64,000 nucleotides of DNA from Candidatus Gastranaerophilales bacterium (GTDB taxonomy: Bacteria > Cyanobacteriota > Vampirovibrionia > Gastranaerophilales > Gastranaerophilaceae): positions 186,001 to 250,000 of the forward strand of contig JAQUVW010000002.1 in NCBI GenBank assembly GCA_028693235.1. The letters are read 5' to 3'. Position numbers and translations under genes: made by a program. Numbering within the stretch: the first letter of the stretch is position 1; each line of letters starts with the position of its first letter. Shown piece after piece: positions 36,321 to 47,238 of the stretch. The notes beneath the pieces were generated by a model. That model worked only from the letters and a program-made list of their open reading frames with translations, made no database searches and was not told the origin of the DNA.

Positions 36321-36635
36321 TTAAGCAGTTAAAATTTTATACGAAGATTTTTCAATTTTATCTATAATTTTTTGCGTTATCTTTTTTGGTTCAACAGGTT
36401 TTTCTATCATTCCAACGTTGAGATTTTTTCTGATGCAACTTTGAATAAATCTTGTACCGAAAATAAATAGAGGAACTGCAATAGAAGCGATTTTCAATAC
36501 AGATTTTTGAAAATCTGAAAGCTCAAAACTTTTTTTAGAAGTTTCACTCGATTGCTTAGTTGATTGTTCGCCTTTGAATTTAGGGCGAGAAACATAGTTT
36601 GTCATTAATGCAGGTGTAGTAGAAGAAATATTCAT
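36321..36635 (-). CDS. Small membrane protein with an FKG motif, unknown (104 aa)
   Basis: The N-terminal third is polar and contains RPKFKGEQ around residue 20, matching the FKG/FGA pattern in other unknown proteins here. Residues 45-67 (SVLKIASIAVPLFIFGTRFIQ) form one membrane helix. The rest is a basic, soluble helix. It begins the lineage-specific block at 36.3-42.7 kb, reading in the same direction as the GH13 gene upstream of it (47-base gap). The function is unknown. Confidence 0.65.
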   Translation of the reverse strand: MNISSTTPALMTNYVSRPKFKGEQSTKQSSETSKKSFELSDFQKSVLKIASIAVPLFIFGTRFIQSCIRKNLNVGMIEKPVEPKKITQKIIDKIEKSSYKILTA

Positions 36636-36682: not shown

Positions 36683-38428
36683 TTATAAATTTTGTTTAAG
36701 AACTTCAAGTCCTGATTTTTCGATATCGGGTGTATTTACTTCAAATACATGGATTCTGGCAGCACCCAAGTCCACATTGATTTTTCCGTCTTGAGCTTGG
36801 ACTTCGCTGTTATCTCCATAGGTAGGAAGTAAATTTTGAAGTTTTTTATTTCCGCTCAATCCGGGGATATTGACGCTTCCTTTTTGTCTTTCATTGATAT
36901 TTCTGTTTGCAACGACAACAAGAGTTTTGCCGTTTAAGTGTCTTGCAAAAGCGATAACTTGGTCATTAGGGTCATTTTCAACTTTCAAAGGAATAAATGA
37001 ACCGTGAGTGATAACATCTTTGTGATCAGCTCTCATTTTTAGTGATGCTTCCATGAAATCACCGACTTCAGGATGTTTGCCGACAAGCGGTCTTGAGAAA
37101 TTGAAGATATCAGGTCTTCCTTTATGAACTGTGCATTCATGGTTTTTAGTGTTTGTTTGAGTATCAGTTTGACCTTCAAAGTCATACAAATAATCATCAC
37201 CTGATTGGTAGCCATCCATATAATATGGGTTTGTCATAGGTAATGTGGCTTGCAAGCCTGATACAAGGTTGATGAATTTAGGTCCACCGCTGAACATTAA
37301 AGATATGTCATCGTGTGTGCCGAAAGAACCGATTAAAGATTTACCTTTTTCAAGTCCTTGTGACATTTGCAAATTTTCTTTTACATAATTTGTCAATTCG
37401 CTTGCTTTTGTCCATTCGTGGAAAATATGATATTGACCGTAATAGCTGTCAAATCCTGCACGTAGGCAATCTTCAGGTCTGTCATAATTCATGTTTAATT
37501 GAGGTGAAGCGTCTTCGTATGTGTAGCTTTCAGCTAACCATGCAAATTCAGGGTCTTTTTGTCTTGAATAAGGAATGATAATATCCCAAAATTCTGTTGG
37601 TTTAGTTCTTGCTACGTCTGAACGAATACCGTCAAATCCGTAGTCTACGCACATATCAACAAATTTTTTGTGTAAATCAACTAATTCAGGATTTAATTCT
37701 TTTTTTGTTTCATCTTTCCAAGGATTGAACATTCTGATATCATTCCAACCTTGAGGAGTTTTTGCTAATCCGTTTCTTTCAAAAGCCATTAACTCAGGAT
37801 GTTGTTGGAATAAATCGTAAGATGCACAACTAGGCAAATCAAGCATTACGTGAATGCCACGTTTGTGAGCTTCTTGGATAAATCCTTTAAGTTCTTCTTC
37901 AACGCTGCGAGGATCGTTTTTGTCATCTAATGCAGGGTCGATTTTCAAGAAATCTTGAGGTGCATATAGTGAACCGGCTGTACCCATAGCGTTTTCAATT
38001 CCGGGAGGGTTAATTGGAAGAACGTGAAGAGTATTAATTCCCAACTTTTTCATTTCATCAAGTTTGCCAACGGCATTGACGAAAGTACCTTGCTCGTCAT
38101 TTCCTCTTATTAGCTGGTTGCCTTCTTTATCTTTAGCATTGAAGGTTCTTGGAATTATACCCATAATAACTGCTTCGTTATTTTTAAATAAAGATCTTAA
38201 ATCATTGTGCCAAGCAACATTTTCTGTTTTTTTGCCATCAACAGCTGCGACTTTAACATTGGCGTTAATAGCAGCTTGATTTAAATATTTTTCAAGAATG
38301 TTTGAATTTTTAGGTTCAACTTCTCTCGGTTGAGCGTCATTAGCTTTTGGAGGTTCATAGTTAGAAACCGGCTTAGCTCCGACTGCATTTGAGTTTACAT
38401 TTAAATATTGATTCATTATGTTAGTCAT
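36683..38428 (-). CDS. GH13 alpha-amylase family enzyme with an unusual N-terminal extension
   Basis: The catalytic barrel carries the GH13 acids: Asp271 in GFDGIRSDVA (nucleophile), Glu300 in WLAES (acid/base) and Asp373/374 in GTHDD (stabiliser). The usual region I sequence (DVVxNH) is replaced by DLPSCA at about 197-202, which somewhat resembles GlgE-type maltosyltransferases. Activity could therefore be hydrolysis or transfer on alpha-1,4-glucans. The first ~80 residues are disordered and hold two copies of a short motif, MNQYLNVNS and LEKYLNQAA, related to the start of the upstream 1046-residue protein. No signal peptide is seen. A GGAGAAAAG site precedes the ATG, which overlaps the upstream stop by one base. 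Confidence 0.88.
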   Translation of the reverse strand: MTNIMNQYLNVNSNAVGAKPVSNYEPPKANDAQPREVEPKNSNILEKYLNQAAINANVKVAAVDGKKTENVAWHNDLRSLFKNNEAVIMGIIPRTFNAKDKEGNQLIRGNDEQGTFVNAVGKLDEMKKLGINTLHVLPINPPGIENAMGTAGSLYAPQDFLKIDPALDDKNDPRSVEEELKGFIQEAHKRGIHVMLDLPSCASYDLFQQHPELMAFERNGLAKTPQGWNDIRMFNPWKDETKKELNPELVDLHKKFVDMCVDYGFDGIRSDVARTKPTEFWDIIIPYSRQKDPEFAWLAESYTYEDASPQLNMNYDRPEDCLRAGFDSYYGQYHIFHEWTKASELTNYVKENLQMSQGLEKGKSLIGSFGTHDDISLMFSGGPKFINLVSGLQATLPMTNPYYMDGYQSGDDYLYDFEGQTDTQTNTKNHECTVHKGRPDIFNFSRPLVGKHPEVGDFMEASLKMRADHKDVITHGSFIPLKVENDPNDQVIAFARHLNGKTLVVVANRNINERQKGSVNIPGLSGNKKLQNLLPTYGDNSEVQAQDGKINVDLGAARIHVFEVNTPDIEKSGLEVLKQNL

Positions 38429-41400
38429 TATTTCTTTTCTCCAGCGTAGACGTCTTCATTTTTCATTTTACCAAAGAACTGTTGAGCGAGCAATGTAGTT
38501 CCAACTAAGGCAATACCTGCAATGCCGAAAGTCTTCATCCATTTATTTGTGTTGAAAGCATTGTTTGCAGCTTTGTTGACCATATCTTCGATAGAAGAAC
38601 CTACAAGAATATGTCGCCAAGAGCTATTTGCAGATTGGTTAACACCGTTTAAAACATGGTGCGGTTTGTACCAGTAGTCAGAATTTGCAACTTTGTCAAT
38701 GAATTCTTTTCTATATGAGTCAAAGTTTTGTAGAATATTTTTTTCGTCAAGTACGGTTTTAGTTGCACTATCAACAGGTTGACCAAACATAACATCAATA
38801 ACACCTTTATATGCTGCTGGTCCTACGTTATTTAATTTTTCTGTGTAGTCTGTTATTTTGTATGAAAGCATTGCTTCTACAGATTTTTTGGTCGCAATTT
38901 TTGTGTATTCAGCAACTGTCATTCCGCTTTTTTGTAGTTCGGCAATGGATTTAGGGATAAGTCCATCAGCTTTGTCAAAAATGTTTAGCATTGATTTTAA
39001 TAGAGCAGAGCCCACTTCATCAGTTTTTTTAGCCGCAGTATCGGCAAATGTATGAAAATCTATTTTTTTTGCGTTATATTGCTCAGCTAATTCTCTGATG
39101 CCACTAATAAGTTCTTCGCTTACTTCATTCTCAAGTTTTGGAACATCTGCATTTTTGAAAAGTTTTCGGATATTATCCAAGTCGAGGCTTTCTTTTCCTG
39201 ATTTAATGTTCTCTAAATTTTTAGCCAATGTACCTTTTAATTCATTATTGATATGACCATTCATTTCATTTTCTATGATAGAACGCAAGTTTGGAGAATC
39301 AAAATTTTGTTCCAACCAACCAATTTTGCCTGGGTGAAGGCCATTATTGTCGATAATATTTTTTAGCTCAGTATTGAGCATATCTTTTTTCTTTTGAACT
39401 AATTCAACCAGATTTTCACTACCGTATTGAGCTAGAAGTTGCTTGTCAAAAGTTCCGTCAGCCATTCTTTTATATAAATCCATAGTTTGAACCATACGGT
39501 ACATAGAAGCTCTTGCTCCCATAATTCTTGAATCTACGTATGATTTTGCAGAATGTTTTGCAGAACCTGCAAGTGTTTGAGATAAGCCTTCTTCAAATTT
39601 TCTTGCTGCATAGTCAGCATTCCAAGCTTCACCTGATTTTGCTTCTTTAAATCCTGTAATTTTGCCTGTAAAGAATTGTGCAATATTAGAGAAGCCTTCT
39701 TTTTGGAAGCTTTTTGCTGTTGGGTTGTATATTGTATCAACCGCAGTGCCTATTTTATCTTGAAGCCCTTTTGATAATTGTTTGTCGTATTCTGCTATTG
39801 ATTCAGAAAGTTCACTCATTGCCTTTTTGTATTGTTCAGGGTTTTCAGCTAATTTTTTAAGCTTTGTATCAATCAAAGCGACTGATTGGTTATTGCCAAG
39901 TTTGGCTATTTCTAAGTCTTTTCCTTTAATACCAATTGATTTTAAGAATTGGTTATTTACTTTGCCCCATTGGTTTGCAATGAATGTTTCTGCTTGGTCG
40001 CCTACATTTACACTGATATATTTATCTAAAGGTTTTTTGTTGAAGTTGAAACCATCAACCATTTGGAATAATTTTTTAATGCCTGATTTAGCTTCTCCAA
40101 CAGTTGTGCCGCTTTGTCCTTTTATAGTTGCTTCAATTGCGTCACTTATTGATTTTTGGTTTCTTTCAAGTTCAAGTATATTGCTTTGACCTAAAGAACC
40201 GCTTAATTTTTTAGCTAAAGCTTCAGCATTTTCTGTAGTTATTTTAAATCCTTCACCTTGTGATTTGATAAAGTTTTCAACAGCTTCTTTGTTCATTCCC
40301 AAAACTTTGAAATCACTGCTGTTGTTCATAAATAATCTTTGGGCGAAGTCTTTGCCGACAGGTTCAGAAGCTGCACTGTTAAATACATCTGTCAAAATTT
40401 CAACAGCTTCTTCTGCATCAACAGCTTTTGATGTGCTTGGAATTAAGCTTGCAAGATTTTTAGATATTACAGAAGTGGTTTCAGGTGTCATTTCTGTTAT
40501 GTCGCCCATTGCATTTTTGATTTGTTCAGCAGTAAAGCCTTTTAATGCTTTGTTTTGGCTTAAAGTTGCAATCAAACCGTCATTTACTTTTACAGAAGAT
40601 TTTGCCATTTGAGAAAGTTCTTTCTCAATAGCATCGCCTAGTGCAATGTCAGAATCTGAGTTGATGATTTTTGAGATTTTTCTAATCATGTCAGGTGTTA
40701 ATTGTTCAGAGTTTGATTTTGTAAATATTGCATCAAGTGCTTTTGCGGCATCTTTATCGTGAGCTACGTATGTTGATTGAGTAGCTTTTGAAACTAAATC
40801 AGGAGTAAATGCTTCTATATGTTTATCAAGTGCTTTTTCAGCCTTTGACAAACTTGCGTTTTGTTGAGCTTTTCCAATAGCTTTTTCAGCAACGCTACAG
40901 CCTAAAGCACTCATCAAAGGAGTAGCTAGACCGGCTGTTGCCATCCATAAAGTATTTCCTTGAACAGCTATTTTTTGAGCTTTTTGTTTAATGACTTCGT
41001 CTCTGTTTTTGATATCAGTAGGGACTTTCATTTTGTCGCCCATTTTATTCAAATCTTCTTTAGAAACCATATCCCAAGGAACGTATTGAGGATCTTGGAA
41101 GAAGGTCTTTTTTCTGCCGTAGCTGTCTTCATATTTTTGGTGAATATCAACGCCGAATTTTGCTTTTAAAGGAGCTTGAATAGCGAGTTTTGGCCATAAA
41201 GCCATAGAAGCAAAGAAAGAACCAAAGCCTACAAATTCCATTGTTTTTTTAAGTTTTAAAGGATTTTTTACGAATAAATATGCTGCAAGTCCTAAGGAAC
41301 CTGCTTTCATAGCCAAGTCATTCATTCTGCCTAGTTCGTGGTCATTAGCTTTACCTTGAGCACCTTTTTTAATATTTACGATATCTTGTTTTAAATCTTT

Positions 41401-41568
41401 AGCGTAAGAAATAGGAGATGAGAACAATCTGCTCGGAAGCATATGACCTCTGCCTTCCAGCGGTTTAATTTTATTGGCTGTATTTAAGTCAATTTTAATT
41501 GCCGGTAAAGGTTGAGATGCCGGTTGTTGTTTATTTTGATTTAGATAGTTATTAAGTAAATCTGTCAT
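38428..41568 (-). CDS. Large unknown membrane-associated helical protein (1046 aa)
   Basis: I do not recognise this protein. It opens with MTDLLNNYLNQNKQQP, like the GH13 enzyme downstream. Hydrophobic helices occur near residues 88-130 and 205-225, and one lies near the C-terminus (FGIAGIALVGTTLLAQQF). Between them is a region of about 750 residues, almost all alpha-helical and rich in Lys, Glu, Ala and Asn, which may form a long bundle or coil. The blocks PLKAKFGVD and a later TLWMATAGLA match parts of the upstream 367-residue protein. It is translationally coupled to the GH13 gene and lies one base after its paralogue. A scaffold or spacer role is conceivable but not shown. Confidence 0.8.
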   Translation of the reverse strand: MTDLLNNYLNQNKQQPASQPLPAIKIDLNTANKIKPLEGRGHMLPSRLFSSPISYAKDLKQDIVNIKKGAQGKANDHELGRMNDLAMKAGSLGLAAYLFVKNPLKLKKTMEFVGFGSFFASMALWPKLAIQAPLKAKFGVDIHQKYEDSYGRKKTFFQDPQYVPWDMVSKEDLNKMGDKMKVPTDIKNRDEVIKQKAQKIAVQGNTLWMATAGLATPLMSALGCSVAEKAIGKAQQNASLSKAEKALDKHIEAFTPDLVSKATQSTYVAHDKDAAKALDAIFTKSNSEQLTPDMIRKISKIINSDSDIALGDAIEKELSQMAKSSVKVNDGLIATLSQNKALKGFTAEQIKNAMGDITEMTPETTSVISKNLASLIPSTSKAVDAEEAVEILTDVFNSAASEPVGKDFAQRLFMNNSSDFKVLGMNKEAVENFIKSQGEGFKITTENAEALAKKLSGSLGQSNILELERNQKSISDAIEATIKGQSGTTVGEAKSGIKKLFQMVDGFNFNKKPLDKYISVNVGDQAETFIANQWGKVNNQFLKSIGIKGKDLEIAKLGNNQSVALIDTKLKKLAENPEQYKKAMSELSESIAEYDKQLSKGLQDKIGTAVDTIYNPTAKSFQKEGFSNIAQFFTGKITGFKEAKSGEAWNADYAARKFEEGLSQTLAGSAKHSAKSYVDSRIMGARASMYRMVQTMDLYKRMADGTFDKQLLAQYGSENLVELVQKKKDMLNTELKNIIDNNGLHPGKIGWLEQNFDSPNLRSIIENEMNGHINNELKGTLAKNLENIKSGKESLDLDNIRKLFKNADVPKLENEVSEELISGIRELAEQYNAKKIDFHTFADTAAKKTDEVGSALLKSMLNIFDKADGLIPKSIAELQKSGMTVAEYTKIATKKSVEAMLSYKITDYTEKLNNVGPAAYKGVIDVMFGQPVDSATKTVLDEKNILQNFDSYRKEFIDKVANSDYWYKPHHVLNGVNQSANSSWRHILVGSSIEDMVNKAANNAFNTNKWMKTFGIAGIALVGTTLLAQQFFGKMKNEDVYAGEKK

Positions 41569-41569
41569 T

Positions 41570-42673
41570 TTAGCATACCACCTTTTCTTTGCTGTCGTCG
41601 ATTATTGGGGTAGAAGCTGCTTTTTTAGCAGCATTTTTGGCGGGGTCTGTTAAAGTTATTATATTGCCGAGCAATGTGACGCCTACTGCGGAAAGAAGTA
41701 ATGCTTTACCTGCAATTCCCCAAGTTTTAATTTTATTTTCGCCACCTTGCCATAGTTGAATGGCACTTTCTTTTGCGGTTTTTCCAATAGATTTTAGCCC
41801 TCTTGTCAATCTGCTTGCCTTAATAGTTTCTTCAATTGGCTTGCTGAACATAGTTCCTTTGTTAAAGTTTTTAAGATGGGCAATGTTTAAATTTTCCCAA
41901 GGTTTTTGCATTGCGAATGCAACTGCAGTTCCTGCCCATAAATATGAAGAAAGAGTTGAGAAAGTTCTTGTTTTGGTTACCAATTCTTTAATTTTAGGTT
42001 TAACGATTTGGTCTGAATCTTGTAGATTTTCGCCGTAGCCCATTTTCTTAGCTACTTTATCGTAGTAACTATTGCGATTTTCGCCGAAATTTTTGTTATC
42101 ATAAAGTAAGTCCCAGCGAGGGAAATCAACACTTTCGAATACTTTGTGGTATTCATTGCTTATTAAATCTTTATCGTCAACTGAATCAGGGAGTTCGTTT
42201 ACTTGTTTTTTATATGCCAAATTCATATCAACGCCGTATTTAGCTTTGACCGGCAATTCGATTAATTTTTTAGATAAATTTTTAGCAGCTCCGTATAAAA
42301 CAACTCCAAGAGCCATCTTTTTGCCTAATTTAGCTGCACTTTTAGCTGCATTTTGAGAGAAATGTTTAGATACAAGATTAGATGTAGCCATCATCATTAA
42401 GCTACCTGTCAAATAAGGCCACATTCCCATTGTTAAAAATTCGTAGAAATTTGCGTTTTTACTACCTTTAAAGCCTTTGATAGGATATACGGTTACTGCA
42501 TTTTGAAACTTATCAGCAGTGATTCTTGCAGCAGTAAGCGGAGGCGTTTTGCCTCTTTTTGTTACTATTACTTCGTCGCCGTGTGGGACTGAAGGTTGTT
42601 TTTCTTCAGTTTCATTTTGCTTAAAAGCAAGTGCAGTCGCTTGATTGGTAGAAGAGCCGATTGGTTTTATCAT
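41570..42673 (-). CDS. Unknown membrane protein related to the 1046-residue neighbour (367 aa)
   Basis: This protein shares PVKAKYGVDMNLAYK, an SSYLWAGTAVAF helix and a hydrophobic C-terminal helix (GIAGKALLLSAVGVTLLGNI) with the larger protein downstream. It looks like a shorter paralogue without the long helical middle. An N-terminal polar region of about 75 residues ends in YPIKGFKGSKN, an FKG-type motif. Three or four membrane helices are likely. I start at the ATG at 42671-42673, preceded by GAGGGA; the frame stays open to a GTG at 42691 that would include this site. It leads the operon with the large protein and the GH13 gene. Confidence 0.78.
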   Translation of the reverse strand: MIKPIGSSTNQATALAFKQNETEEKQPSVPHGDEVIVTKRGKTPPLTAARITADKFQNAVTVYPIKGFKGSKNANFYEFLTMGMWPYLTGSLMMMATSNLVSKHFSQNAAKSAAKLGKKMALGVVLYGAAKNLSKKLIELPVKAKYGVDMNLAYKKQVNELPDSVDDKDLISNEYHKVFESVDFPRWDLLYDNKNFGENRNSYYDKVAKKMGYGENLQDSDQIVKPKIKELVTKTRTFSTLSSYLWAGTAVAFAMQKPWENLNIAHLKNFNKGTMFSKPIEETIKASRLTRGLKSIGKTAKESAIQLWQGGENKIKTWGIAGKALLLSAVGVTLLGNIITLTDPAKNAAKKAASTPIIDDSKEKVVC

Positions 42674-42738
42674 AATTCCCTCATTGAACACAATATATCT
42701 TATATTAAAATAAACTCCCGAAAATCCATGTTATTGCT

Positions 42739-45960: not shown

Positions 45961-47238
45961 ATGAAAATTTCTTTTGCCCCAATACAAAATTATAATTCAG
46001 GAGCTAGACAAAAACAGACTCCTTCTTCAGATTTAAAGTATCAATATAATCTTAATGCGGATACGGTTTCCTTTGGTGCTATAAAAAAGAATAAACTTGA
46101 TGGATATCAGCTTTTAAGTGCTAATTATTTCAAGGCACCTTTGGAAAAGTTCAAGGATCAGGAAGATTTTAAAGATTGGGCAAGAACAAGTTTGTCGGAA
46201 AAAATGAAGCCCGATTCTTATCCTTGTGAAAGCGAACTTGACTCTAAAGAAAGGGAAAAAAGACTGACGGAATGGCGCCAATATATGTTTTCTGATAGAT
46301 TTATGTTGGACCATCCAACTTTAGCTTTGTATGTTGCGGACTCTATAACGAAAGATTTGTATCCTGATACGAAAAATTTCCCGCCGCTTTTTGATACTGA
46401 ATCTATGAAAAAAACATTAAACGAAATTGATGTTATTTTAGAAAAAAATCCAAAAGCGAATATTAGTTTTCCTAAAAAGTACAATCATAATCTTAAACAA
46501 AAAATGCTCAATGCTGCAGAAAAATTTCCCGACCAGTCCACCAACGGAAGAATGTATTGGGTGAGGGTTCCATCTTTTGAACATGACCCGGAGCATATCG
46601 ATAAAAATCTTAAAATTATAAATTGTATTAGTGCCGAGGCTTGGTGCACAAAAGGGCATTTCGCTTCAAAATATCTTAAAAACGGTGATTTCTTCATTTT
46701 GATGGATAAAAACAATCCCGAGCTTTCCGTTCGTTTAGAAGGCGAAGATAAAATTGCAGAGGTTCGTGACAGAAATCATAATTCAAATTTTGGCTTGAGT
46801 TATTTGGAGCCTTTAAAAACTCTTGCTCAAGAAAAGAATTTAAGTGGTTTTGAAGGCGAATTTCAAAATCTTCAACGCAGACAAGATGTATTGAATATTG
46901 CTAAAGAAATTTCAGCTGATGATATTCAAAACAAAAATTATGCAAACATTTTACGTTCCTCTGGTATAGAAGTTAAAGAGCTTGATGATGGAATGCTTGA
47001 ACTTGCAAAATTCCAAAAAGCCGCGAAAGAGTTTACATACGAGGATTTGGGTATAAGTGAAAATGAAATGTTTAAACATATCAAAAAGATAAATGGCAAT
47101 GCTAATTTTGAGGGCACACAAGTTACAAACCTCGGTGCGTTGAAAGAAATCGGTGGATATACATTCGCTTCACAAAGCAAGTTGAATTATGAATCTTTCA
47201 AAAATGTTAAACAAGGTGGACGTACTTTTTGGGACTGA
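45961..47238 (+). CDS. Unknown 425-residue protein with an N-terminal VSFGA motif
   Basis: The start MKISFAPIQNYN and the DTVSFGAIKK at about residue 35 resemble the FKG/FGA motif of other unknown proteins in this window. The body is soluble. A WVRVPSFEHDPEH to AEAWCTKGHFASKYL block at about 198-240 is followed by an FFILMDKNNPELSVRLEGEDKIAEVRD beta segment. That layout recalls PcfJ-type and phage-encoded proteins, but only faintly. Residues 385-412 (GNANFEGTQVTNLGALKEIGG) look like one degenerate leucine-rich-like repeat. No signal peptide is seen. Secreted effector, phage-derived or cytoplasmic roles all remain open. Confidence 0.72.
   Translation: MKISFAPIQNYNSGARQKQTPSSDLKYQYNLNADTVSFGAIKKNKLDGYQLLSANYFKAPLEKFKDQEDFKDWARTSLSEKMKPDSYPCESELDSKEREKRLTEWRQYMFSDRFMLDHPTLALYVADSITKDLYPDTKNFPPLFDTESMKKTLNEIDVILEKNPKANISFPKKYNHNLKQKMLNAAEKFPDQSTNGRMYWVRVPSFEHDPEHIDKNLKIINCISAEAWCTKGHFASKYLKNGDFFILMDKNNPELSVRLEGEDKIAEVRDRNHNSNFGLSYLEPLKTLAQEKNLSGFEGEFQNLQRRQDVLNIAKEISADDIQNKNYANILRSSGIEVKELDDGMLELAKFQKAAKEFTYEDLGISENEMFKHIKKINGNANFEGTQVTNLGALKEIGGYTFASQSKLNYESFKNVKQGGRTFWD

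Follow-up and report, generated by a model that had tools for sequence, protein, structure and literature searches.

Little is known of how the cells of Gastranaerophilales, a widespread group of uncultured gut bacteria, are organized. In one of their genomes, 2.1 Mb in size and of Gastranaerophilaceae type, an enzyme of family GH13 and the large membrane protein encoded beside it begin with similar short peptides. Both genes lie in a 64,000-nucleotide stretch of DNA (the window). What is this common tag, and what does it do? A sequence-only reading of the window had described it as a 'YLN' motif, unlikely to reflect ordinary homology, that may recruit proteins to a shell or scaffold. We found that the tag is real, conserved and common to unrelated proteins, and recruitment or clustering appears to be its most likely role.

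A tightly packed cluster encoding two tagged proteins

The relevant features of the window are as follows:

36321..36635, minus strand: small protein of 104 aa with a tag-like N-terminal tail (PALMTNYVSRPKFKG; likeness judged by eye only) and a hydrophobic segment; cluster membership uncertain
36683..38428, minus strand: GH13 enzyme of 581 aa, predicted to act on alpha-glucans, lacking a Sec signal, with a tagged N-terminal tail of ~70 residues (Pfam PF00128 and structural matches)
38261..38305, minus strand: GH13 tag copy 2, residues 42-56, SNILEKYLNQAAINA; strongest island among 51 orthologues
38399..38425, minus strand: GH13 tag copy 1, residues 2-10, TNIMNQYLN; conserved island among 51 orthologues
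38428..41568, minus strand: helical protein of 1046 aa with predicted membrane segments and a tagged N-terminus; no Pfam family or PDB fold match
41533..41565, minus strand: tag of the 1046-aa protein, residues 2-12, TDLLNNYLNQN; orthologue pattern xNL[IL]xx[YI][IL]xN
41570..42691, minus strand: untagged membrane protein of 373 aa that heads the cluster; its homologue by hhalign is the membrane domain at the N-terminus of the 1046-aa protein

The genes are tightly packed on the minus strand in the order 373-aa protein, 1046-aa protein, GH13 enzyme: the 1046-aa gene starts one base beyond the 373-aa gene and overlaps the GH13 gene by one base. The relationship between the 373-aa protein and the membrane domain of its neighbor is well supported (hhalign probability 95%, E 2.4e-8). 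As a tag carrier, though, the 373-aa protein was rejected, the strict motif being found in 0/75 members of its family. This family does show another tail motif, the 'FxG box' (VSFGA, PKFKG, INFSA), which recurs in N-terminal tails of the genomes analyzed and is seen in the window at 41570-42691, 36321-36635 and 45961-47238. It is present in 41/75 members of the 373-aa family compared to 4.1 in shuffles, its genome-wide test is weak, and in some GH13 orthologues it directly precedes the tag.

The cluster is conserved. Homologues of the 373-aa, 1046-aa and GH13 proteins occur together and in the same order in 39 of 40 fetched regions, the exception being truncated by a contig end. Among 191 genomes of the family, the 1046-aa protein was matched in 178, and a GH13 relative in all 191 when an untagged paralogue is counted. 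In our genome, this paralogue (L002:1420-2964) is of the secreted type, starts with a Sec-like signal, carries no tag and shares 40% identity with the tagged enzyme, matching it at E 5.6e-108. In each of the 13 genomes that lack a 1046-aa match, GH13 was matched only once, with E 2e-76 to 1e-106. As these sole matches are at the level of the paralogue, the match tables suggest that the tagged GH13 enzyme and the 1046-aa protein were lost together.

The tagged enzyme itself is a recognizable GH13 protein. Its match to PF00128 (E 8.8e-6) passes the Pfam cut-off, and its top structural matches are AmyB of Thermotoga neapolitana (4gkl), GlgE and the Thermotoga maltosyltransferase. It has the same barrel fold as these proteins at an identity of only about 18-20%, and it has the tagged tail in place of a signal peptide. 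The catalytic Asp nucleophile, Glu acid-base and third Asp (D271, E300 and D373) are invariant in 51 orthologues. Region I, where an N-H pair is usual, does not contain D-x-x-x-N-H but reads DLPSCAS, with D197 invariant and the N-H pair replaced. This is a local departure inside a clear GH13 fold. By comparison, the 1046-aa protein has no Pfam family, and a Foldseek search of its model against the PDB gave no fold match with E < 0.001 and nothing credible. Most of its orthologues have only about 750-900 aa; the additional length here comes from extra segments in a variable helical middle.

A short conserved motif in variable tails

The GH13 enzyme starts with MTNIMNQYLNVNS and carries its second motif at residues 41-53 (NSNILEKYLNQAA); the start of the 1046-aa protein is MTDLLNNYLNQNK. 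All three copies are thus where they had been reported: at the start of the enzyme, near its residue 48, and at the start of its neighbor. In 51 GH13 orthologues, the 70-residue tail is variable apart from two islands. In the first, N3, hydrophobic residues at 4-5, and N10 are conserved. The second comprises residues 42-49 plus A/G53, with N43, L45, Y48, L49 and A53 kept between variable linkers. The 1046-aa protein behaves likewise: among the first 25 residues of 45 orthologues, only 3-5 and 8-9 stand out, although in several genera this N-terminus lacks the motif. The proposal of a motif common to both proteins holds, but YLN is not its conserved part, and N50 of the enzyme is poorly kept. 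Instead, the motif that forms islands in variable, disordered tails across Gastranaerophilaceae reads [ST]-N-[LIVMY]-[LIV]-x-x-[YFM], in generic consensus followed by [LI], with the core N-[hydrophobic]-[LI]-x-x-[YF]-[LI]. The closest genera have variants such as MANYLDKYLN, TNVLERYLQN and TNVLNSILAN, and others have SGLLNAYLNNLAMIN or TNLIQNYISN.

In AlphaFold2 models, both GH13 copies form short helices (residues 3-9 and 44-55, pLDDT mostly <50) that are isolated in low-confidence segments and separate from the catalytic domain (pLDDT >90), suggesting that the tag is no confident part of the GH13 fold. The 1046-aa protein is modeled almost wholly as helix, with a tag helix at residues 2-11 (pLDDT about 53).

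Short helices with this Phi-Phi-x-x-Y-Phi spacing might act as amphipathic anchors that attach an enzyme directly to lipid. We consider this very improbable: the tag is short, polar and N/Q-rich, its conserved N would be unusual for lipid insertion, and the two main membrane carriers described here and below already have membrane segments and need no anchor.

Is the likeness between the two proteins inherited, accidental or a property of the DNA? Ordinary homology was ruled out, in agreement with the earlier proposal: the best local BLASTP match between the two proteins is the N-terminal tag (8/21, E 0.11), no other similarity was found by this search, and the two family profiles fail to align. 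Chance, or a DNA-level signal at start codons, initially has something to recommend it, in that low-complexity, N/Q-rich tails readily yield short matches and two of the tag copies sit at start codons. Synonymous codons at the motif vary freely, however, so selection acts on the peptide and not on the DNA, and a start-codon signal was rejected on these grounds; internal and C-terminal copies, moreover, lie far from any start. A scan of the genome for a DNA pattern of the form ATG..YLN was uninformative, with as many matches for the reversed control.

To quantify the likeness we used both matrices and shuffles. A matrix trained only on motif 2 of the GH13 orthologues ranked the N-terminus of the 1046-aa protein first of 455 sampled genes of its own genome, which was covered by searches plus a 22% sample of stretches. 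With this matrix, the median score of the 1046-aa orthologues was 12.6 bits, a value reached by 0.4% of the 455 sampled N-termini. The strict motif was found in 31/80 tails of the 1046-aa family, compared to 0.25/80 in shuffled tails (maximum 2), and in 38/80 GH13 tails, compared to 0.57/80 (maximum 4); these counts use related, non-independent sequences and so overstate the evidence. Among 1610 genes, the strict motif occurred 64 times in a disordered context, 63 of them in the GH13 and 1046-aa families, a ratio that measures specificity and not breadth because this set is rich in the neighborhoods of these genes. Reversed and permuted motifs gave 1-4 matches in the same set. The tag is thus more than chance, and the accidental and DNA-level explanations are largely refuted and hardly credible.

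Carriers outside the cluster

Recurrence in unrelated proteins is free of the kinship that weakens the shuffle counts. The earlier suggestion to look for the motif beyond the pair proved fruitful: motif HMM scans of 59 genomes revealed further, unrelated carriers. The clearest is a third family, an unlinked membrane protein of ~700 aa present in 102/117 genomes, with the motif in a P/Q-rich C-terminal tail (SPTNLLNMYKNG, TNLINQYLDSQ, or two copies of GNLVDMM). Our genome encodes its copy on another contig, where the motif reads STNYLDMMTNKQ. The strict motif is present in 25/51 of these tails (0.17 expected from shuffles) and a loose form in 40/51 (1.15 expected), leaving 11/51 without even the loose form. 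When the profiles of this family and the 1046-aa family were compared, the tag alone aligned. The strict motif thus occurs at 39-49% per family, implying that some lineages have degenerate versions or have lost it. The third-family tail (L251:499-2574 and relatives) also contains a conserved EPVRTYIPSP and a C-terminal helix, ADAALxxADxAEKxAxxTLAM.

The remaining carriers are sporadic, found in one to three genomes each. They include 5'-nucleotidase-like proteins (PF02872 and PF00149; MVNNFPPTNLLNKYKQ, with two copies in a second genus), a 399-aa HExxH protein (NTNLIMQYLENQARNN), a weaker case in an AAA ATPase (STNMLDKAKN), and small membrane proteins with the tag at the extreme N- or C-terminus. 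Only three proteins of our own genome are clear carriers, and its 5'-nucleotidase relative is untagged, so cargo differs by lineage. Two further candidates in this genome are a 333-aa probable membrane protein (L117:10657-11655; MDLLSAYSQPGVRVSFDN) and a 149-aa protein with EF-hand-like motifs (L110:9826-10272; NSTLISQMLQN...EFNG). Matches in RecG-like helicase, flagellar and repeat proteins were dropped as chance, as was one in a 287-aa open reading frame of our genome, which sits within a continuous, folded-looking reading frame.

Some of these carriers are of types that are usually secreted. 5'-Nucleotidases are usually extracytoplasmic enzymes, yet the tagged proteins (L332:195-1742, L333:972-2561 and L334:2421-4091) have N-terminal tags and no Sec signal. 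Together with the tagged GH13 enzyme, which likewise lacks the hydrophobic signal that its untagged paralogue appears to have, they raise the possibility of a Sec-independent export or membrane-insertion signal read by a dedicated machine. Export signals are normally end-specific, however, and the tag can be N-terminal, internal or C-terminal, anywhere between residue 2 and the final 20 residues, and is often repeated. Membrane proteins and an AAA ATPase are also among its carriers. Variable position and frequent repeats fit a docking motif better, and we regard an export signal as decidedly unlikely.

If the tag docks, what does it dock to? The earlier proposal of a membrane-bound scaffold would point to the 1046-aa protein, but this protein bears the tag itself and is not an evident receptor. 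In four genomes (G015, G050, G057 and G088), neither the 1046-aa protein nor the tagged GH13 enzyme was found, but their third-family proteins keep the motif (TNLLDKY, ENLVDMY, GNMLDKY); in a fifth such genome, G011, it is borderline (NLVDMN). As the third family keeps its motif where the pair is absent, the partner is probably some protein other than these two, or else the tags bind each other.

Docking motifs and encapsulation peptides

From what was directly observed, namely a motif that is conserved at the protein level, lies in tails predicted to be disordered and recurs in unrelated families, together with an operon that is itself conserved, we infer protein binding, one partner for all carriers and co-localization at a membrane. 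The tag would be a small helix with the core N-Phi-[LI]-x-x-[YF], displayed on disordered tails and bound by one common partner, so that otherwise unrelated proteins are gathered. Two tag copies would bring the cytoplasmic GH13 enzyme to the site of its translationally coupled membrane neighbor, and alpha-glucan processing would thereby be kept at a membrane. In our judgment there is about an even chance that this reading, a short linear docking motif that gathers unrelated proteins via a single putative partner, is correct. We propose only tentatively, and with some doubt, the more specific picture of a shell-less Gastranaerophilaceae system: at a single membrane-associated site, the helix would assemble enzymes, an ATPase and membrane scaffolds, and each lineage would have cargo of its own. 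In either form, the pattern suggests an undescribed protein-gathering system in non-photosynthetic gut cyanobacteria. If this is true, such a tag, kept in core families and exchanged among unrelated enzymes, would offer a handle on cellular protein organization; it would also hint at a function for large families that have no Pfam assignment, and could become a portable targeting tag.

Some short amphipathic N-terminal tags recruit cargo to shells or scaffolds. The recruitment part of the earlier proposal is favored by conservation at the peptide level and recurrence in unrelated proteins. The shell part is not: the microcompartment shell domain PF00936 had no match above the Pfam cut-off in our genome (best E 0.23), and we rejected a microcompartment shell on that basis. 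Encapsulation peptides are amphipathic helices of ~18 residues at a protein terminus, joined on by a disordered linker of poor conservation, and outside shells they can self-associate as trimeric bundles (PMC12339742). The layout is similar, as the entropy profile and low AlphaFold2 pLDDT indicate the same arrangement here, a terminal helix carried by a linker that is disordered and poorly conserved. In contrast to an end-located helix of ~18 residues, however, the tag has a core of about 7-9 residues with conserved N and Y, occurs in internal and repeated copies, and is also found C-terminally and on membrane proteins. It does not qualify as a microcompartment encapsulation peptide.

The self-association of these peptides nonetheless raises an alternative: tag helices may bundle with each other, so that tagged enzymes and membrane proteins cluster or condense without a receptor. 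Several carriers, repeats and disordered spacers make up a stickers-and-spacers layout, and the GH13 enzyme and 1046-aa protein both bear the motif, rather than one bearing the motif and the other a receptor. On the other hand, the conservation of N and Y points to specific recognition beyond hydrophobic packing, the core is less than the ~18 residues of encapsulation peptides, and third-family tags persist without the operon pair, though other tagged proteins could serve as partners there. We consider such homotypic bundling possible, if rather improbable.

The docking-motif reading finds its closest parallel in the short linear motifs that bind hubs and adaptors. To our knowledge, the sequence of the tag resembles no described bacterial motif, and in the open-access literature we found no paper on a linear motif in Gastranaerophilales. 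Hub- and adaptor-binding motifs are short, embedded in disorder, independent of position, sometimes multivalent and present in unrelated proteins. Two of their hallmarks are seen in the tag: it is a conserved island in a disordered tail, and it recurs above chance in otherwise dissimilar proteins.
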